Assembly (NCBI GenBank): GCA_947174305.1
Contig: CAMWIH010000009.1
Location: 1-33,766 of the forward strand
Reading direction: 5' to 3'
From: an uncultured Porphyromonadaceae bacterium
Lineage (GTDB): Bacteria; Bacteroidota; Bacteroidia; Bacteroidales; Muribaculaceae
DNA length: 33,766 nt
Shown here: one piece after another, positions 4,875 to 29,561 of the stretch
Position numbering within the stretch: the first letter of the stretch is position 1
Layout of the letters: each line of letters begins with the position of its first letter
Notes under the pieces: model-generated
Seen by the model: only the letters and a program-made list of their open reading frames with translations
Told to the model about the DNA's origin: nothing
The model's database searches: none
Made by a program: the position numbers and the translations under genes

Positions 4875-6092
4875 ATGAGAAATTTTACGATCTCTTCGAT
4901 GCTTCTCGGTATTGCGATGACAATGTCGGTTTCGGCATTTGCAATCACAACTTCCATACCGGAAGATTACAGAGTGGAGCCCGCTCCGGGCACAACAGTA
5001 GAGGCGATTACCGAAATTACGGTAGTGAATAGAGAGGGAGACGAAATCACTAATTCTGGGAATATAATTTATATAAATGATGCGGAATATTCCACAACCC
5101 CGACTACAGACTATAACAAGGTGACATTCGTTCTTGATAAGCCTGTTACTGAAGCAGGAACCTATGAAATCTACATCCCTTCGGGACGAGTAGATGATGG
5201 ATGGTTTGGAGTCGATGAGTTCATATTCACTCTTTATGTAAGCAACTCCGAGCAGGGTGGCGACAATGATCCTGTTTCGCCGGAGACAGTGATTCCCAAA
5301 GGATTCACGCTATCTCCGGTTCCGGGGTCGGATGTAGAATTTATACAAGAGTTTAAGTTAACTTACGATGACGATTATTCTGATTTATCTCTCGATAAGA
5401 AAAGTATCCTTGTCGATGGACAGGAGATGTCGGTAAACGGCTATGGAGGTTGGGGTGAACTTACGATAACTCTTATAAGTAAAATTACTGAACCGGGAGT
5501 GCATACGATTGTCTTTCCTGTTGGAACGTTTACTATTGATTCGCTGGACAAGAATGAACTATTTAGTTTCACTTTAACAGTTACCGGCACTGAAAGTCCG
5601 GAAGACCCCGGAACTGACCTTGGCGAATTGGCCGGAATTCCTGAAGACTTTAGTGTAATTCCGGCTGCAGATGCCACTATCGAAAGTTTATCAGAGATTC
5701 GTATTGAGGATGAATATTATGGATATATTCGTGTACCACAGGTAGCTGACCTCTATATAGATGGTGAGAGCGTGGAATATACTGCAGAAGTTGAGGGTGA
5801 TGATGATGAGATACTGGTTATAACTCTTAATAAAGAAATCACCGCCCCCGGCCTTCATACCATCCAGCTTCCGGAGGGTTTCTTCAGATATTATATATAT
5901 AAAAGTGAACCGTTTGGCTGGACAGTTACTGTTAAAGATTCCGGCACAAACACAGGAATTAATAACATCGAAGCAGAAATAGGCGAGACAGAAGTATTTA
6001 CTATTGAAGGACTGCGAGTAACTGAGATGAAAAGAGGGAATATCTACATTGTCCGCAGTGGAGATAAGATTTTCAAGACAATAGGAAAGTAA
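4875..6092 (+). CDS. Secreted protein with repeated beta-sandwich-like modules and short C-terminal sorting-like tail
   Basis: Signal peptide; three related modules (IPEDYRVEPAPGTTVEAITEI..., IPKGFTLSPVPGSDVEFIQEF..., IPEDFSVIPAADATIESLSEI...). C-terminus TEVFTIEGLRVTEMKRGNIYIVRSGDKIFKTIGK. Confidence 0.7.
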   Translation: MRNFTISSMLLGIAMTMSVSAFAITTSIPEDYRVEPAPGTTVEAITEITVVNREGDEITNSGNIIYINDAEYSTTPTTDYNKVTFVLDKPVTEAGTYEIYIPSGRVDDGWFGVDEFIFTLYVSNSEQGGDNDPVSPETVIPKGFTLSPVPGSDVEFIQEFKLTYDDDYSDLSLDKKSILVDGQEMSVNGYGGWGELTITLISKITEPGVHTIVFPVGTFTIDSLDKNELFSFTLTVTGTESPEDPGTDLGELAGIPEDFSVIPAADATIESLSEIRIEDEYYGYIRVPQVADLYIDGESVEYTAEVEGDDDEILVITLNKEITAPGLHTIQLPEGFFRYYIYKSEPFGWTVTVKDSGTNTGINNIEAEIGETEVFTIEGLRVTEMKRGNIYIVRSGDKIFKTIGK

Positions 6093-6113: not shown

Positions 6114-9100
6114 ATGAACCAGAAATATAGAAGTTTGCTGGGCTATGGTGCCGCAATTACAGTGATATGTGCCGGATTCATAGGTATCAGTGCGATGCCC
6201 CTGATCCCTGAATTCAGTAAAAGAGATAAGGGTGCGAGTGAGAGTAAATTGCACAGTTTCAAGTCTGCCCACAGGACTAAGGCAGAGTCGAAAAGAAAGG
6301 TGGAAATCCATAGAAGCGCCGCAGCTTCTACAGCGTCCCGGAATTTCCAATGTGTGCTGAGTTATTCAGATACCTGGGATGAGCTTGAAGATGCAACAGG
6401 AGTATATACCTTTTCCACCTCCTTGCCAATCACTTTTAAAGAGAAGTTTGTAAGCGAGGATTACACCCCATCGGGAGGTGCGTTCTTCACTGACAAATAT
6501 TACTTTCTTACTGCTGTTTCAGAAGATTGGTTTACAGGAGAGGTTGCTGTATATACCTATAAGTATTTCCGCGAGGGCTGGGAAGAGCTGAACTATGCTG
6601 TGCAGAGCATATATGATCTCTACAATGCCATCTGCTATGATCCCATAGACAATCTTGCTTACGGTTACTTTTATAGTGATAATGGCGGCGACTGGGGATA
6701 TATGAATGTAGATAATTTCAGTGTTACCCATATAGCACCTTTGGATGTACAATTGGTTTCTGTTGCAATAAACGAGCATGGAAAGGCCTACGGTGTGGGC
6801 GTGGATGGTAATTTCTACGCCATAGACAAGAGAAGCGGTGGCATGACAAAAGTGGGCGCCACGGGCTTGACCCCTTATTATATGCAGAGCGCGGCATTCG
6901 ATGATGAAGGTAATCTCTATTGGGCAGCCTCGGAAGCATACTCTTCAGGCCTATATACAATTGACGTGACCACGGGAAAAGCTACTGAAATCGGAAACTT
7001 CAATGGCAATGAGGAGGTTTGTGCTCTTTATGCTTTGAATGCTGAAGTTAACAGAGGTGCTCCTTCCCCGGCTGTAACTCTAAAGACTGACGTATCGGGC
7101 AGCGAATTGACTTTCCCTTTCTCATTTAAGATTCCTTCTACTACTGCAGGGGGAAGCAATTTGACAGGGGAAATTGATTACGAGGTAAAAATCGATGGTG
7201 TGAGTGTTAAGAAAGGGAAAGGAACAGCTGGAACGGAGGAGACGCTCTCTCTGACGGTAGAAAATCCGGGTTATCATCTTTTCAAGGTTATCTTGGCAAA
7301 TGCTGAAGGAAGTTCAGAACCTACGACTTTACGAAGCTGGATTGGAGTGGATGAACCTAAGAGTGTACGCAACGCAACCGCACAGAAGATCTCGGATAAT
7401 TCTATAAAGATAACATGGGAGACACCTGATGGAGGAGTGAACGGCGGTTTCTTTAATGCGGATATGATTACCTACAACGTTACGCGCCTTCCGGAAGGAA
7501 AGATTGTGGCAAAGAATATCAAAACCACCGACTTCACAGATGTGATAGATCTAGCAGAGGGTCAAAGTCTGATCCGCTATCTCATCACGCCCACCGTGGA
7601 AGGCCTTGAGGGAAAGAATGCAGAGACCAATGGTATTGTAATTGGACAGCCATATCAAACACCGGTCGATTTCACATTCGATACGGAAGAGGATTATAAT
7701 ATCTTCACAGTGATTGACAATAACGAGACAGTGACTCTTGATTCAGGGCTATGGCAGTTTACTCCTTCAGGAGAGGCGGCCGGTTATGTCGGAGGAACAA
7801 AAGATGGAGACGATTGGCTCATCACACCTTCTGTATATCTTAAGGCCCGCACCAATTATATCTTCTCGCATGATGTGCTTTGCTATGCCGATACTTGGCC
7901 TGAAGAATATTCCGTCTATCTCGGGACATCGCCAGACATCGCCGGGATGACGCAAGAAATCCTGCCGAACACAACAATCTGGTGGGATGAATACCGAACT
8001 AAAACCGTTACAGTGTCCGTGCCGGAAGATGGGGTCTATTATTTCGGTTTCCATGCCACATCTGAAGCCGGGAGTGCCTTCTTCCTTCTGGATAACATTT
8101 CCATCCATGAATCAAACAGTCTTGATGCCCCGGCTGCTGTAACCGGTCTTAAGGTTGAGGCTGGTGCACAGGGAGCTAAGGAAGCAACTGTCTCGTTCAC
8201 GACTCCGGAAAATAAAGTTGACGGCAAGAAGCTTGAAGGTAAAATGACAGTCAGCTTATGCCGTGATGGGGTAATAGTTACAAGCTTTGCCGATGTTGCT
8301 CCAGGCGAATCAATGACATATACAGATAATGCGGCCGCTGATAAGGCAATGAATACTTATGAGGTGTTCTGTTCCAACGCTTATGGTGCGGGACCAACAG
8401 AATCTGCTGAAGTTTGGGTAGGTCTTGATGCTCCCTCTGCTCCCGTCGATGCCAAGGTTAGTCTCAATGCCGACGGAAATCCTGTGATCAGCTGGTCAAA
8501 ACCGGAGGGACGCGGAGTTCATGGTGGATATGTCGATAATTCCGACTTGAATTATACTGTGGCTATGTTGAGGAACGGTGCGCTTGTGCCTGTGGTTGAG
8601 AAAACTGATGCCTTCACATGCACCGACACAAATACTGTGCTGGAGAACACGGGCGACCAGGTAATGAATCAATATTACATTGTGCCTGCTTCCAACCGGA
8701 CGGGAGAATATGGCAATAATACTACGGCACTCTATATCTCCGGAAAACCTTATCCCCTTCCTTTCAAGGAATCGTTTGCAAACAGGAAGCCGACTAATTT
8801 CTGGGCCCTTACCGGCACTGACGGAGAGGGTTGGGAAATAGGTGACGATTTCAGCATCGGTTCGCAGGATGATGATGATGGTGTGCTTACATATCTGCCG
8901 GCTGTTCCGGAAGTGACGGCAACCGCAATGTCGGGAAAGATAAGCCTTTCGGGAGCAAAAAATCCTCAGCTCACATTCTATCTCAGAAAGATGAGTATTG
9001 CCGACAACGGTTTCTATGACACGGATCCTTCCAAGGATGTTCTAAATATAAAGGTTGGTGTGGATGGTTTCAATCTGGAAACAATCAGCTCAATCCGGCT

Positions 9101-10577
9101 TGAAGATATAAAGAAAGTTGGAGATTATCTTTATCAGGCGGTTTCGCTTAAGGATATCGATGCGAAAGAATTTGTGGTGATAGCATTTGAATATGAAGCC
9201 GTGAGCACACGCACGCCCATAATGATCGACAACATTGCCGTTAAGGATGTCTGCGACTATAATGCAGTGGCCGGAGAGGTGACTGCTCCTGAAGCTGTGG
9301 AAGTGTTTGATGACCTGATTGTAAATGTGAATGTCATTAACGGCGGAAACAACCCGTTGAGCAATATTAAAGTCCGTCTTATGAGAGGGGAGAAAGAGGA
9401 GGCTGAATCCACTGTTGAGAGTCTTGATCCCGATCAGACGGTGGTGGTGAAGCTTGAAGCGGAGGCAACTCCTGAATGGGGTGAGGAAGCAGAGTTCACG
9501 GTGACGGTGGATGCAGAGAACGATGAAGTGGAAGGTGACAATACATCCGATTCTTTCAAAGTGAAGGTTGCCTACCATCGCCGCCCGGCAGTCTCAGATC
9601 TTGAGGGCGTGGTGAAGGATGATGAATTGAAACTGTTGTGGAGTGAACCTGCCGGCTTGACCGCTCTTGAAACCAGAGTGACCGAAACATTTGATTCGTA
9701 TAATCACAGTGACCTTTCATTCGGAGAATGGAAGAGCGAGGATAAGTCTTTCTGGGGATTTGAAGGTGTGAAGACAATTACCGTTGACGGTGTCAAGATC
9801 GAGATTCCGAACTCTGACGATGCGCAAGCATTTATGGTGTTTGATCCGGCATTCGCGGGAATAGACCTGGATGATAACCCTGAATGGGAACCGATATCGG
9901 GCGATAAACTCATCGTTTCATTCGGGGATGCCGCCAATGACGATATGGAGGCTAACAATGACTGGCTGATCTCTCCCGAACTTTCCGGAAAAGAACAGAC
10001 CATCACATTCTGGGCACGCACGGCTGCCAAGAAAGGTAAACCGGATGATATACGCATCCTGACTGCAACCGAGATTGAGTATAACAACAGCGGAACAGTT
10101 AAATCTTCCTGCTTCGAGACGCTTGAAGGGGGCGACATAACACTGACACGCGAATGGGTGAAATATGAATTCACACTTCCTGCAGGAACAAAATATTTTG
10201 CAATCCGTAATATTTCGGAAGATGGTTTCGCCGTATTGATTGACGACATAACCTATGAGCCATATCTTGAGAAGGCTAATGCCGTGCTTGAGGGTTACAA
10301 TGTTTATCGCGATTCAAGTCTCCTGACTCCGGCTCCTACATCGGTGACTTCATTCACTGTTTCGCCGGTTGTGGATGGAGACTACACGGTGAAAGCTGTA
10401 TATGATGAGGGTGAATCGGAAGCTTCGAATGTTGTCACCATCACCGGTAGCGGAATTAATGAAATATCAAATCATCTGGACAGTGATACCCTGTATGACC
10501 TGAATGGTTATAAAGTGAAACAGACAGAGAAAGGGAGAATTTATGTTCGTAGGAACAAGAAGGTGATGACCCACTGA
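6114..10577 (+). CDS. Large secreted multidomain protein (fibronectin type III-like and choice-of-anchor/cleaved-adhesin-like modules)
   Basis: 1487 aa; repeated Fn3-like segments (LDAPAAVTGLKVEAGAQGAKEATVSFTTPENKVDGKKL...), DDWLITPSVYLKARTNYIFS...FLLDNISIHE and NDWLISPELSGKEQTITFWARTA, typical of choice-of-anchor J-like modules. C-terminus LYDLNGYKVKQTEKGRIYVRRNKKV. Confidence 0.7.
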   Translation: MNQKYRSLLGYGAAITVICAGFIGISAMPLIPEFSKRDKGASESKLHSFKSAHRTKAESKRKVEIHRSAAASTASRNFQCVLSYSDTWDELEDATGVYTFSTSLPITFKEKFVSEDYTPSGGAFFTDKYYFLTAVSEDWFTGEVAVYTYKYFREGWEELNYAVQSIYDLYNAICYDPIDNLAYGYFYSDNGGDWGYMNVDNFSVTHIAPLDVQLVSVAINEHGKAYGVGVDGNFYAIDKRSGGMTKVGATGLTPYYMQSAAFDDEGNLYWAASEAYSSGLYTIDVTTGKATEIGNFNGNEEVCALYALNAEVNRGAPSPAVTLKTDVSGSELTFPFSFKIPSTTAGGSNLTGEIDYEVKIDGVSVKKGKGTAGTEETLSLTVENPGYHLFKVILANAEGSSEPTTLRSWIGVDEPKSVRNATAQKISDNSIKITWETPDGGVNGGFFNADMITYNVTRLPEGKIVAKNIKTTDFTDVIDLAEGQSLIRYLITPTVEGLEGKNAETNGIVIGQPYQTPVDFTFDTEEDYNIFTVIDNNETVTLDSGLWQFTPSGEAAGYVGGTKDGDDWLITPSVYLKARTNYIFSHDVLCYADTWPEEYSVYLGTSPDIAGMTQEILPNTTIWWDEYRTKTVTVSVPEDGVYYFGFHATSEAGSAFFLLDNISIHESNSLDAPAAVTGLKVEAGAQGAKEATVSFTTPENKVDGKKLEGKMTVSLCRDGVIVTSFADVAPGESMTYTDNAAADKAMNTYEVFCSNAYGAGPTESAEVWVGLDAPSAPVDAKVSLNADGNPVISWSKPEGRGVHGGYVDNSDLNYTVAMLRNGALVPVVEKTDAFTCTDTNTVLENTGDQVMNQYYIVPASNRTGEYGNNTTALYISGKPYPLPFKESFANRKPTNFWALTGTDGEGWEIGDDFSIGSQDDDDGVLTYLPAVPEVTATAMSGKISLSGAKNPQLTFYLRKMSIADNGFYDTDPSKDVLNIKVGVDGFNLETISSIRLEDIKKVGDYLYQAVSLKDIDAKEFVVIAFEYEAVSTRTPIMIDNIAVKDVCDYNAVAGEVTAPEAVEVFDDLIVNVNVINGGNNPLSNIKVRLMRGEKEEAESTVESLDPDQTVVVKLEAEATPEWGEEAEFTVTVDAENDEVEGDNTSDSFKVKVAYHRRPAVSDLEGVVKDDELKLLWSEPAGLTALETRVTETFDSYNHSDLSFGEWKSEDKSFWGFEGVKTITVDGVKIEIPNSDDAQAFMVFDPAFAGIDLDDNPEWEPISGDKLIVSFGDAANDDMEANNDWLISPELSGKEQTITFWARTAAKKGKPDDIRILTATEIEYNNSGTVKSSCFETLEGGDITLTREWVKYEFTLPAGTKYFAIRNISEDGFAVLIDDITYEPYLEKANAVLEGYNVYRDSSLLTPAPTSVTSFTVSPVVDGDYTVKAVYDEGESEASNVVTITGSGINEISNHLDSDTLYDLNGYKVKQTEKGRIYVRRNKKVMTH

Positions 10578-24898: not shown

Positions 24899-25099
24899 TT
24901 ATTTGATGTTTACACTCATTGAGAATCCTTTACTGACGTTTGCACCGGGAAAATTCGCTTGAATCCATTGTTCCTGCTTGGCTTTATTACCCATCAATTG
25001 AGAATAGTATCCGGTTTCTGAGGAGGAGCATTCGAGTGTGCGGGTGAATGGTTTCGGACCATTCATCTGGTAAACTCCCTTGATTGTTACTTTCGCCAT
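24899..25099 (-). CDS. Small conserved-looking soluble protein
   Basis: 66 aa MAKVTIKGVYQMNGPKPFTRTLECSSSETGYYSQLMGNKAKQEQWIQANFPGANVSKGFSMSVNIK. An internal ATG is the likelier start than 25165. Confidence 0.6.
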   Translation of the reverse strand: MAKVTIKGVYQMNGPKPFTRTLECSSSETGYYSQLMGNKAKQEQWIQANFPGANVSKGFSMSVNIK

Positions 25100-25619: not shown

Positions 25620-26447
25620 TTAGAAAAGTCCGAATCTTTTCTTCTTTTTGGGCAGGAATGAATTATGGATGTACATGTTCAGATGTTCCTTTTTCTTCTC
25701 ATCTTCTCCCACCATTACAAGACCTCGCTTAGACAATACTAAATGCAGGTTATCCCATGAACTTTCATCGCGTTGGTGCGACTGATTACAAACATATTCA
25801 AGCAATTCCATAAATTCTTGGAAATCGCTTGGCGTGGTGACAGATGACACCACTCGTGAAATCTGAATCTCACGTTGCTCCTCCAGTTCCATGACTTTAT
25901 CATCATCAGATTTCATAAAAATCTTCTTTCCTATGCCAACAGCAAGACCTGATACTCCTCCAGTGAGTGTATCCAGTACCGAAGCAAAAGCTGAGTCATC
26001 TCCAGCATATATAGCCTCTATCGCAGCGTCAAATTTCTTATCAATTTCAGACACTTCTAAAGCTAACTTTTTAGCTGGAGACAATGTATCCTTAGGATTA
26101 GCGACATTTGCTTGTCCTATAGACTTCTTTGAAAGCTTAAGTTGCTTTTTGACTACGAATATTACCTCATCGGGATCAAATCCTTCTTTTTCGGCTACCT
26201 TTATAAGCATATCCTTTTCTTCCTCGTTCAGTTCTCCATCGGTCAAGACAAGCTCAATTAGCCTGTCTATCTTTTTAGAAAACGTTATTTCAGGAGCTGC
26301 CGATGTCACAACATCAGCGTTGCTTTCATCACTTTCATTTTTCTTTCCCTTTACAGTCCGAATAAGTCCGGATGCAGTAGATGCCAGATCTTTTGTAGAT
26401 GATATAGCATTAGCTATATCACCGATAGATTTGAAATTAAATGCCAT
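25620..26447 (-). CDS. TerB-like domain-containing hypothetical protein
   Basis: KIDRLIELVLTDGELNEEEKDMLIKVAEKEGFDPDEVIFVVKKQLK resembles the TerB acidic helical repeat. Confidence 0.55.
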   Translation of the reverse strand: MAFNFKSIGDIANAISSTKDLASTASGLIRTVKGKKNESDESNADVVTSAAPEITFSKKIDRLIELVLTDGELNEEEKDMLIKVAEKEGFDPDEVIFVVKKQLKLSKKSIGQANVANPKDTLSPAKKLALEVSEIDKKFDAAIEAIYAGDDSAFASVLDTLTGGVSGLAVGIGKKIFMKSDDDKVMELEEQREIQISRVVSSVTTPSDFQEFMELLEYVCNQSHQRDESSWDNLHLVLSKRGLVMVGEDEKKKEHLNMYIHNSFLPKKKKRFGLF

Positions 26448-27561
26448 AATTAATTATTTTTGAATTTAACTTTTCCGTCAGCTTATCAATCCATTTTATT
26501 ACGGATGCGCGGGCGCGGTCGTTTGTCGGGAGTTGAGCGAGAAGAGTTCCTTCTGTCACACCATAGTTATTGATGGGGAGTTCACGCCACCACGTGCCAT
26601 ATCGTCTTGACCCTTTGAAGTTATCTTTGAGAGTCTGCGAGAAATCACTGTCATCTCCTTTAGTTGCTTCCACGACATATTTACCTTTCTTACGATATAC
26701 CGCGATTCTCACAGGTGAATTTTTAGATGATAGAGTAAAGGAATCATTGCCATTTTCTAAAGACCAACCCTTTGAGGCAAGTTCTTTGATTTTAGCATCC
26801 CATGATTGTATCTTTGAATTGTTGACTGCCTCCTCATCCTCTTTCTGCTCCTCTTCATTCTCTTTCTCCTTCTGCTCCTCAGTCGGTTCTACCTGGCTTC
26901 CGGCTATAGCCTCAATAAAAGTGTCAAGTTTAAGAATATTATCATCAGTAGCGCATGAGGGATAAAGTTCATTACGGAAAATGCCACTTATTCGGTTAAG
27001 TGCTTCTATCAACTTTGTAATTTCAGTCTTGTCACCATTACCGGTTGTTTTGATCACCTCAATGACATTATCAATAAATGACTGCACAACTCCCGGATCC
27101 GCATGCATTTGAATGGCCATTGTATGAAAAATCAAAGCCTTCTTATTTTCTTCAGAATTTTCTATCACATAGTCCGAGAGTGCAGAAAGGAAGTTATTAT
27201 ATGTGGATAGTTTCTCTATAAAAATAGTTGAGTCTCGATGCTCTTTCCTTTCAATAGCATGTTGTGATTCTACAAGTTGCTGTTGAAGATCCTGCTGTAG
27301 CTTTGTCTGCTTTTCTGCCAATTCAGCTTGGAGTTTGATCTGCTTCTCATCTAAGTCAGCCTGTTGTTCTGATTGTCCTTTCAATAGTATGAAAGATGCA
27401 AATACAGTCATAATCACTCCCAAAACAGCTCCGATAATTGTAACCGGGAGGTCTTGACTGTCAACCAGAGCAACGGTCACCATCACAATAGATAGAATTG
27501 CTATACAGAATACTATCCACCATGTCTTTGAAAACAATGGCTTAGAGGATTCGTGTGCCAT
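26437..27561 (-). CDS. Membrane protein with two N-terminal TM helices and coiled coil
   Basis: TMs WWIVFCIAILSIVMVTVALV and VTIIGAVLGVIMTVFASFILL, then EKQIKLQAELAEKQTKLQQDLQQQL coiled coil; overlaps the downstream ORF by 11 nt. Confidence 0.65.
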   Translation of the reverse strand: MAHESSKPLFSKTWWIVFCIAILSIVMVTVALVDSQDLPVTIIGAVLGVIMTVFASFILLKGQSEQQADLDEKQIKLQAELAEKQTKLQQDLQQQLVESQHAIERKEHRDSTIFIEKLSTYNNFLSALSDYVIENSEENKKALIFHTMAIQMHADPGVVQSFIDNVIEVIKTTGNGDKTEITKLIEALNRISGIFRNELYPSCATDDNILKLDTFIEAIAGSQVEPTEEQKEKENEEEQKEDEEAVNNSKIQSWDAKIKELASKGWSLENGNDSFTLSSKNSPVRIAVYRKKGKYVVEATKGDDSDFSQTLKDNFKGSRRYGTWWRELPINNYGVTEGTLLAQLPTNDRARASVIKWIDKLTEKLNSKIINYGI

Positions 27562-27604
27562 AAATAATTCATAGCCTCCGGACTCTCCTCGTTGGTGTTA
27601 AGTT

Positions 27605-27935
27605 ATTAAAAATAAAGAGAAAGCGTGAGAGCCGTACTTGTTGCTCGTTCCACAATTGGAGGCCTTCGCATTGCCCGGTTAGTTGAACGAGCAACTGCAG
27701 AAGCCTCACGCAGATATATGTATCTGCGCTTTCAATTTACGCTCGCGCGCAAACAGAAAGCGGAATATACATATCCACAAGGCATCTACTGTTGCTGCAA
27801 TCCTGACTAACCAAAGAAAGTTGCGAAGTTTCCAATTGTCAAGAAAGAGCGTCGAGTAAACGCATTTCTAAAATCTATATGTAAGTCTCTCCTTAACAGG
27901 CACCGATAACCGAGGCTTCTGCATGGAGATTACCG
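27605..27935 (-). ncRNA. Candidate structured RNA or long structured 5' leader of the minus-strand operon
   Basis: Minus-strand -7 TAACTTTG at 27947-27940; several perfect inverted repeats; terminal two-tier hairpin GCGTGAG...GTTGCTCGTTC...GAACGAGCAAC...CTCACGC followed by TTTCTCTTTATTTTT. Confidence 0.4.
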
Positions 27936-28020
27936 AGTGCAAAGTTAATAATTATTTCCGTATATGAAAATATCGAGACATATATTCTGATGCAAAGATA
28001 ATATTATTAAGCAGAATGCG

Positions 28021-28193: not shown

Positions 28194-29561
28194 ATGAGTG
28201 ATGAGGTACCTGTATCGTTGATTATTGAAGATGGACAGTCCGATGCGTTCGGGACAGAAGAGCTGTGCCGACATTCAAAGAGGGTGTTATGGCTCGCTGT
28301 CAGGGACGGTCGTCGGGTAGTGTATAAAGGCCTTACGGAGGATTTGCGTCATCATCCGGAGGAAATTGCTTCATTGCGCAAGGAGTATTCTCTCGGCTTT
28401 CGTTTGGATTGTGAGGGGGTTGTCCGGTTTTATTCTTTTGAGTTGCATCCGCATTTTGGCCCGATTATCGTAATGGAGTATGTAGATGGATATACGCTCC
28501 AGGAATATTTAGATAAGATCCGTGATGATGGCATTGATTTGCCAACGCTTGACGAGCGCCTGAGGATTTCAATGGATATCGTGGAGAGTCTTGAGATGAT
28601 TCATGGTGCCGGGATTTTGCATCGTGATCTAAAACCGGATAATATACTTATCCGAAAGAGAGATCAGCGCGTCAAGATAATTGATTTCGGACATGCCGAT
28701 GCCGAAGATTTTATGATATATAAAAACTCTGTCGGAACACCACAATATGGCTCCCCTGAACAGCAGGAGCCTTCAATAGGAAGTAAGGCAGGAGATATTT
28801 ATTCATTCGGAAAGATTCTGGAGAAATTGCTTCCTGAGCCGCGGTATAGGAAGATTATAGATGCTTGCATTTCAGAAGAGGAATCCAAACGTCCGGATAT
28901 AGAATGGATAAGTGAACACCTTTCAGGCTCCGGGCGTGGAAGCACGCGGAGGATATGGATTATGGGAGCGGGGTTGGCGTTATTATTGCTTGTAGTGAGC
29001 CTAAAGTTTTATTTCTCAAATGATAATCGCGATGGCGTAAATGCCAGGGTGGTCGAAGAGGTAAAAACAGATAGCATCTTTGAGGTTAAGACAATGGGAA
29101 GAGAGCCGGAAGATGTGGAGACACCGGATGTAGGGAAAAATGTGACTCTCCATAAGTCGGAGACGGAATCAGTGGCAAAAGGGGAGTATGTAAAGGCTCC
29201 GTTACCTTCTAAGGCGGCTGAAACTATAGATGATACAACAAATCAGACTCTTCAGGATAATGTAACTGCAATCTTAAATAAATATATCCGTAAAGCTGAC
29301 AATATTAATAAACGTTATGGCAAGCTTTCCTATACCGATAATGTTGAAGAGAATAGGAAACTGCGCATTAAACGCGGTAACGAGCATTATGCATTATCGG
29401 ATAGTATGGAGAAGGAGCTATCAGGTTTGGGTATAGATAAATCAACGCACCAGGAGGCCTATCATCAGTTGTGGACTCACATAGTGTTTGAGACCAATCG
29501 GATAGACGGGGCGGATGAGATTGTGAGGAAGATTATGCAGCAACTCGAGACTCAGCAATAA
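28194..29561 (+). CDS. Membrane-anchored serine/threonine protein kinase
   Basis: Kinase motifs VVYKGL, ILHRDLKPDNILIR, VKIIDFGHAD, GTPQYGSPEQ, AGDIYSFGKIL; TM IMGAGLALLLLVVSLKFYF; C-terminal extracytoplasmic region. Confidence 0.92.
   Translation: MSDEVPVSLIIEDGQSDAFGTEELCRHSKRVLWLAVRDGRRVVYKGLTEDLRHHPEEIASLRKEYSLGFRLDCEGVVRFYSFELHPHFGPIIVMEYVDGYTLQEYLDKIRDDGIDLPTLDERLRISMDIVESLEMIHGAGILHRDLKPDNILIRKRDQRVKIIDFGHADAEDFMIYKNSVGTPQYGSPEQQEPSIGSKAGDIYSFGKILEKLLPEPRYRKIIDACISEEESKRPDIEWISEHLSGSGRGSTRRIWIMGAGLALLLLVVSLKFYFSNDNRDGVNARVVEEVKTDSIFEVKTMGREPEDVETPDVGKNVTLHKSETESVAKGEYVKAPLPSKAAETIDDTTNQTLQDNVTAILNKYIRKADNINKRYGKLSYTDNVEENRKLRIKRGNEHYALSDSMEKELSGLGIDKSTHQEAYHQLWTHIVFETNRIDGADEIVRKIMQQLETQQ

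Follow-up and report, generated by a model that had tools for sequence, protein, structure and literature searches.

A multi-copy structured RNA of gut Bacteroidales with two competing conserved folds, probably a transcription attenuator ahead of exchangeable operons

Related systems and the element in the window

Riboswitches and leader attenuators are the described systems closest to the element reported here, which shares with them a promoter-bearing 5' leader, mutually exclusive helices and an intrinsic terminator just ahead of a start codon. It differs from them in that it has no aptamer match and no known ligand, its rival fold is a rod of ~90 bp spanning the whole RNA, and it occurs in up to ~16 copies per genome before unrelated, exchangeable genes. 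6S RNA (including 6S-Flavo) is likewise long and rod-like and has a promoter and a terminator of its own; it is normally present in single copy, whereas the element is multi-copy, is tied to downstream start codons, has a second conserved fold and has no Rfam match. Hot spots of cargo exchange, among them the integron platform with its promoter Pc and attI, also place a fixed expression module before variable cassettes, but here no adjacent integrase or attC-like array was found, the module would be an RNA switch, and ordinary recombination could account for the exchange. Bacteroidales have few known classes of large structured RNA. Among the short RNAs predicted for Bacteroidetes in a human-microbiome screen (Fremin and Bhatt 2021, PMC8040213) is HMP2_1881, which is 108 bp long, lies near radical SAM domains and is expressed in stool. 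The element resembles HMP2_1881 (PMC8040213) in being structured, from Bacteroidetes and sometimes near radical SAM genes (two units here); HMP2_1881 is shorter, and in this comparison, which was by description only, it could overlap part of the element.

No family in Rfam 15 reached its gathering score anywhere in the window, by which we mean the whole 33,766-nt stretch of DNA that was analysed, and the best sub-threshold hits at the element had E-values of 2 or worse. In 20 loci with diverse members of the family, the sole match was to a tRNA elsewhere in one locus. The covariance models that a first-pass annotation of this DNA had proposed to try, 6S-Flavo among them, thus gave no assignment, and neither 6S nor 6S-Flavo matched in the window or the 20 loci. 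A search of the open literature found no description of such a Muribaculaceae or Bacteroidales RNA. We infer that the element works like an attenuator or riboswitch, while membership of any named class is not supported.

The first-pass annotation had noted several sequences on the minus strand (TAACTTTG, TGCAGAAGCCTC, GAGGCTTCTGCA, GCGTGAG/CTCACGC, TTGCTCGTTC/GAACGAGCAA and a T-rich tract), and each lies where it had been placed. When checked on the sequence, TGCAGAAGCCTC (27923-27912) was fully complementary to GAGGCTTCTGCA (27707-27696), and we estimate that a perfect 12-bp match between two stretches in such a length is expected ~0.003 times by chance. RNA folding of the minus strand from 27937 to 27600 gave -122.9 kcal/mol (z = -6.6), and none of 100 dinucleotide shuffles was as stable. 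The member of the family in the window consists of a core at 27597-27872 on the minus strand together with a 5' domain and a promoter, reaching ~27970, and has the following parts.

27940-27947, minus strand: Bacteroidetes-type -7 promoter element TAACTTTG, from sequence; the TAnnTTTG motif recurs upstream of relatives.
27888-27935, minus strand: 5' domain, a sensor candidate from folding and sequence, with stem CGGTAA/TTATCG (27935-27930 / 27909-27904) and alternative stem TCTCC/GGAGA (27929-27925 / 27892-27888); its family counterpart, hairpin GACCG/CGGUC, covaries.
27912-27923, minus strand: 5' loop sequence TGCAGAAGCCTC, a proposed anti-antiterminator with conserved core GCAGAAGCC at 27922-27914.
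27597-27872, minus strand: core RNA (rod/terminator domain), a full-length match to covariance model R1 (259.6 bits) and the sole R1 hit within the window.
27849-27863, minus strand: 5' hairpin GCGTTTACTCGACGC of the terminator state, from covariation of that fold; its GCGT pairs in the rod with ACGC of the terminator arm.
27801-27844, minus strand: 5' helix TCTTGAC/GTCAGGA of the terminator state (27844-27838 / 27807-27801), from family covariation; its strands have other partners in the rod.
27781-27789, minus strand: rod strand GTAGATGCC, from rod covariation a proposed antiterminator and competitor for GGCUUCUGC.
27697-27705, minus strand: nearly invariant switch strand GGCTTCTGC, whose partner is either GTAGATGCC (rod) or the 5' loop GCAGAAGCC.
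27623-27711, minus strand: terminator hairpin with outer helix GCGTGAG/CTCACGC (27711-27705 / 27629-27623), inner helix TTGCTCGTTC/GAACGAGCAA (27694-27685 / 27650-27641) and apical helix GGGC/GCCT (within 27676-27660); 97.5-98.8% of cells are paired and double changes are present.
27608-27622, minus strand: T-rich tract completing the intrinsic terminator, from sequence; found after CTCACGC in nearly all copies.
27562-27607, minus strand: spacer up to the start codon, inside which sister-species homology stops, at 27574-27580.
26437-27561, minus strand: first downstream gene, encoding a 374-aa protein with two apparent membrane segments, a coiled coil and a weak SLATT_5 match below the cut-off.

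Two conserved folds and a long-range loop pairing

The consensus fold of 141 aligned copies is a single rod of ~90 bp, and the window copy folds likewise on its own. In a 60-sequence alignment, 92.4% of the rod's cells were paired and 48 of its 84 pairs had double changes, a score that none of 500 shuffles reached, while slid controls dropped to ~40% paired. Several of the helices show all four Watson-Crick pair types with ~90% or more of cells paired. The rod's cells also contained 1777 G-U versus 236 A-C combinations, and while part of this excess comes from a few columns in which G-U is the rule, the imbalance indicates that it is the minus-strand RNA, and not a DNA hairpin, that is under selection.

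A second fold, the terminator state, comprises the 5' hairpin GCGUuuacucgACGC, the helix UCUUGAC:GUCAAGA, a terminator hairpin (outer GCGUGAG:CUCACGC, inner UUGCUCGUUC:GAACGAGCAA, tip GGGC:GCCU) and then a U-rich tract. For this state 97.1% of cells were paired, 17 of 37 pairs had double changes and 0/500 shuffles did as well; in its helix of columns 28-35 with 65-72, 94.5% of cells were paired and seven of the eight pairs had double changes. The rod's weak yet conserved U-G pairs coincide with strands that have perfect partners in the terminator state. Individual switch bases covary with both partners: column 185 changed jointly with 77, its partner in the rod, on 12 branches and with 233, its partner in the terminator, on six, and column 186 with 76 on 12 branches and with 232 on eight, while the rod pair 24-233 had no double change on the tree. 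These branch counts use a tree built from the elements themselves, which recombination between copies would blur. Such three-way covariation argues that both folds are maintained by selection; the rod and the terminator state are two mutually exclusive conserved folds on shared bases, and the family offers unusually clear evolutionary evidence for these competing folds and for the long-range loop pairing described below. The first-pass annotation had described a minus-strand RNA that is structured, has long-range helices excluding one another as well as a terminator, and shows the layout of an attenuator, and it had named compensatory changes in homologues as the test; such changes are present, the arrangement recurs in 145 distinct full copies, and that description is supported. 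Two further hairpins that it had listed fared differently, as CGCTTTC/GAAAGCG belongs to an apical stem that is variable yet covarying, whereas CGCAGATA-CATA-TATCTGCG is not conserved in other copies.

In most copies GCAGAAGCC lies in the loop of hairpin GACCG:CGGUC, which lies ~45-80 nt upstream of the core and itself covaries (e.g. G-C to U-A). This loop sequence is complementary to the near-invariant GGCUUCUGC; 97 of 135 copies can form the full set of nine standard pairs, versus one in shuffled upstream sequence. Across copies, a changed GGCUUCUGC is often met by a matching change in the loop. Matched loop/switch changes include GGTTTCTGC/GCAGAAACC in L024, L067 and L089, GACTTCTGC/GCAGAAGTC in L038, GGCTTCCGC/GCGGAAGCC in L011, GGCCTCTGC/(T)CAGAGGCC in L004 and, in a member from another family, GGCTTCGAC/GTCGAAGCC (L180). 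An alignment chosen from copies with a shorter 5' domain (A5) gave 98.7% paired cells for the loop helix and five pairs with double changes, with 0/500 shuffles as good. About a quarter of the copies, including some with a changed switch strand, have no perfect nine-pair loop partner, which implies that the loop layer is dispensable or has been replaced in them.

The 12-bp pairing to which the first-pass annotation had drawn attention is therefore real, with a conserved part of only nine base pairs (GCAGAAGCC:GGCUUCUGC). Its overlap with the terminator arm is a single base family-wide; in the window copy the complementarity of 12 bp runs three bases into the arm, and this extra GAG overlap is a feature of the window and its closest copies. 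The annotation had also proposed that the 5' segment disrupts the terminator as its competitor. This does not hold in the family consensus, in which the partner GGCUUCUGC falls within an internal loop of the terminator hairpin and the real competitor is the rod. Since GGCUUCUGC is unpaired inside that hairpin in the terminator state, the loop pairing can coexist with the terminator but not with the rod. As GGCUUCUGC both lies in the terminator's internal loop and is a strand of the competing rod, the loop pairing, which abuts the terminator arm and blocks the rod, should favour termination, the opposite of what had been suggested. The unit goes beyond a layout of one hairpin and one competitor, being a predicted transcript of ~330 nt with several layers of alternative pairing.

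Distribution of the family and the genes behind it

A BLAST search with a 346-base query found four copies in the element's own genome and detected copies of 70-99% identity in the majority of genomes from that genus. A degenerate pattern built from the most conserved strands, GCGTGAGGYTTCTGCRN{0,7}TGYYCGTYC, was found in at least 116 named contigs and one IMG/VR contig, and every locus found in this way holds the element by profile, some truncated by the contig end. Among the matches listed, the named records belong to Bacteroidales; most of them are Muribaculaceae, and two are isolates. A few records titled Lachnospiraceae or Pseudoflavonifractor probably represent misassigned MAG contigs. 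Covariance model R1 (275 positions, 84 pairs) gave matches at ten places in the own genome, of which nine are real and the tenth is the palindrome read backwards. Of 37 genomes in the genus it matched 36, at up to 16 places per genome, and it matched 108 of 393 sampled Bacteroidales genomes (65 of 207 genera); elsewhere in the phylum it was nearly absent, with one other genome matching in a phylum-wide sample of 198. The family is thus an uncatalogued structured RNA of ~330 nt, present in several copies per genome in many gut Bacteroidales; with no Rfam match and a range of at least 65 genera of a major gut order, it can now be annotated with the R1 model.

Of 139 copies, 134 have the promoter motif TAnnTTTG within the 200 nt ahead of them, mostly at 60-69 or ~86-100 nt before the core; after shuffling, 15 of 139 have it. 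Copies typically end in an intrinsic terminator with a start codon ~45 nt beyond it and, judged from the limits of homology between diverged copies, the conserved unit runs from ~100 nt upstream of the core to the terminator. The first downstream ORF was co-directional in 121 cases and antisense in 10, and 58 first ORFs start 30-69 nt past the element, most often at 42-50 nt. In about half of the copies with a co-directional ORF the start lies outside 30-69 nt; some of these ORF calls are wrong and some gaps are 400-900 nt long.

The genes behind the units are diverse. BspA-type leucine-rich repeats were identified in 24 of 155 downstream proteins, several others had Ig-like domains or lipoprotein signals, a few resembled defence proteins, and most were without a Pfam match. 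A PADLOC scan of this cargo gave scattered single defence hits and no theme. Two operons have a radical-SAM protein after a short Cys-containing peptide. With contents this mixed, the cargo offers no clue to a ligand. A DRT/retron reading, prompted by the weak SLATT_5 match, was rejected as the cargo is too diverse and no reverse transcriptase was seen, none being among the Pfam matches listed for the 155 downstream proteins (25 of ~40 families per set). A short protein with an SRRQFFKKAA-type leader and a Cys-containing tail was observed behind some units (L044, also L019 and L017); at L044 (own genome, C4) the peptide (8870-9184, minus strand) and a radical-SAM protein (7579-8811, minus strand) resemble a RiPP pair.

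The following genes differ even between close relatives. Sister species that share the neighbouring kinase gene carry a unit with 92-95% identity to that of the window, but the genes after it are unrelated, homology to the window ending at 27574-27580. In other close pairs synteny likewise breaks 29-48 nt past the terminator. The neighbour in question is a protein kinase-domain gene at 28194-29561 of the window (plus strand), divergent from the unit, and its linkage is kept in the sister species. Units also occur close together: L034 (G005:C105) has three in the same orientation within 9 kb (2036-2298, 6155-6416 and 8518-8777, plus strand), the first two of which precede different operons, and L035 has two nearby units that are 95% identical and have unrelated genes behind them.

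A probable attenuator and the alternatives

Based on these comparisons, the unit is probably a promoter-borne 5' leader that attenuates transcription in cis by way of two conserved folds, each of which excludes the other. A terminator hairpin with its U-tract lies between promoter and gene, and an alternative helix that excludes the terminator is present, with rod and terminator state covarying on shared bases. We propose that RNA polymerase would start near 27935 and make the 5' domain first, displaying GCAGAAGCC in its loop, with the local 5' hairpins forming next. The emerging GGCUUCUGC could then pair with GUAGAUGCC, upon which the ~90-bp rod would zip up and bury GCGUGAG, giving read-through and genes that are ON. 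Alternatively, the 5' loop GCAGAAGCC would capture GGCUUCUGC, the rod would be blocked, and GCGUGAG would be free for CUCACGC before the U-tract, giving termination and genes that are OFF. The choice may be made by a signal (a metabolite, a protein or an RNA polymerase factor) read through the 5' domain or through conserved rod bases. By predicted energies, the terminator state lies a median of 17 kcal/mol above the minimum free energy (MFE), and the loop duplex is worth about -15.6 for 9 bp, or -21.7 for the 12 bp of the window; forced-rod energies were left out, being above the unconstrained MFE with consensus pairs imposed on every copy. A gap of 17 kcal/mol against a loop duplex of about -15.6 suggests that the states are roughly balanced, such that a signal could tip the balance. 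The element would therefore offer a concrete, testable switch ahead of fast-changing BspA-like, lipoprotein and peptide operons.

It is unlikely that the element is instead an independent small RNA gene, present in multiple copies, whose product acts in trans on mRNAs or on a protein, for instance as a 6S-like rod that binds RNA polymerase, with the downstream genes expressed by read-through or from their own promoters. Nearly every copy does have its own promoter motif and intrinsic terminator, the rod is very stable, and in some copies 400-900 nt separate it from the next ORF. These features have to be weighed against the strong co-orientation and the start-codon spacing peak at 40-55 nt, and against the second conserved fold around the terminator, for which such an RNA has no need; a 6S type is further opposed by the multiple copies and the failure of the Rfam 6S models to match. 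The free-standing ncRNA of ~330 nt that the first-pass annotation had offered as its other option is for the same reason less likely, with start codons ~45 nt downstream in many copies. Termination products of the element could nonetheless exist as stable RNAs.

We consider it improbable that the long hairpin is a recombination or cassette-capture site through which, as DNA or as RNA, downstream genes would be exchanged site-specifically in the manner of attC or RNA-guided transposition. Such a site would account for sister species in which promoter and RNA persist but the genes immediately behind the element differ, synteny breaking off 29-48 nt beyond the terminator, and for tandem copies with different cargo (L034, L035). 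It leaves the two competing folds, the promoter and the terminator unexplained, however, and the strand-asymmetric G-U pairs indicate an RNA rather than a DNA hairpin. In the maps examined no recombinase was adjacent to a unit; most units are single, and six unassigned tyrosine recombinase hits lie elsewhere in the genome. Ordinary recombination among many similar units suffices for the exchange. A reading as a MITE or attC was rejected on the grounds that orientation and start-codon spacing are too regular and that the G-U bias reflects selection on RNA.

Still less probable is a processive antitermination element, in which the rod or 5' domain would recruit RNA polymerase, NusG-like or other factors to pass its own and downstream terminators; the location at operon starts with an own terminator and the near-invariant sequence in excess of pairing needs are consistent with it, but no conserved trans-factor was identified and many downstream units have only one to three genes. 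That the element belongs, in divergent form, to a known class of riboswitch or leader is barely credible, since beyond the order of a 5' domain followed by an expression platform there was no Rfam match at gathering threshold in the window or the 20 diverse loci, only chance-level hits with E-values up to 10.

One and the same promoter and proposed switch module stands ahead of unrelated accessory operons, with the operons exchanged and the module staying. A tentative extension, which we hold to be possible rather than probable, is that the module is a portable promoter and RNA-switch platform. Through many copies of one sensing leader RNA, it would subject unrelated and often exchanged genes for surface, peptide and conflict functions to one shared signal at the RNA level, and newcomers would be inserted directly behind the switch. 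Were this true, the regulon would be defined by a large multi-state RNA switch and not by a protein regulator.

Several further observations concern the surroundings of individual units. Plasmid and phage collections gave no match to the element, and one copy was found on an IMG/VR contig (L170, IMGVR_UViG_3300036769_000637), a putative viral contig with a complete unit at 5737-6016 (plus strand). A BspA-like gene lies further downstream of this unit, and elsewhere the contig carries genes for a terminase large subunit (phrog_2) and a helicase-like protein, which hints at carriage by a phage or prophage. In a Bacteroidales MAG (L123, 308-913), a relative of the window gene at 26437-27561 (minus strand) with 46% identity lies behind another unit. 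Finally, a short ORF of ~65 aa beginning MAKVTIKGVYQMNGPKPFTR lies at 24899-25098 of the window (minus strand), and its DNA recurs in two other genomes at 82-86% identity, beside units in L052 and L035.
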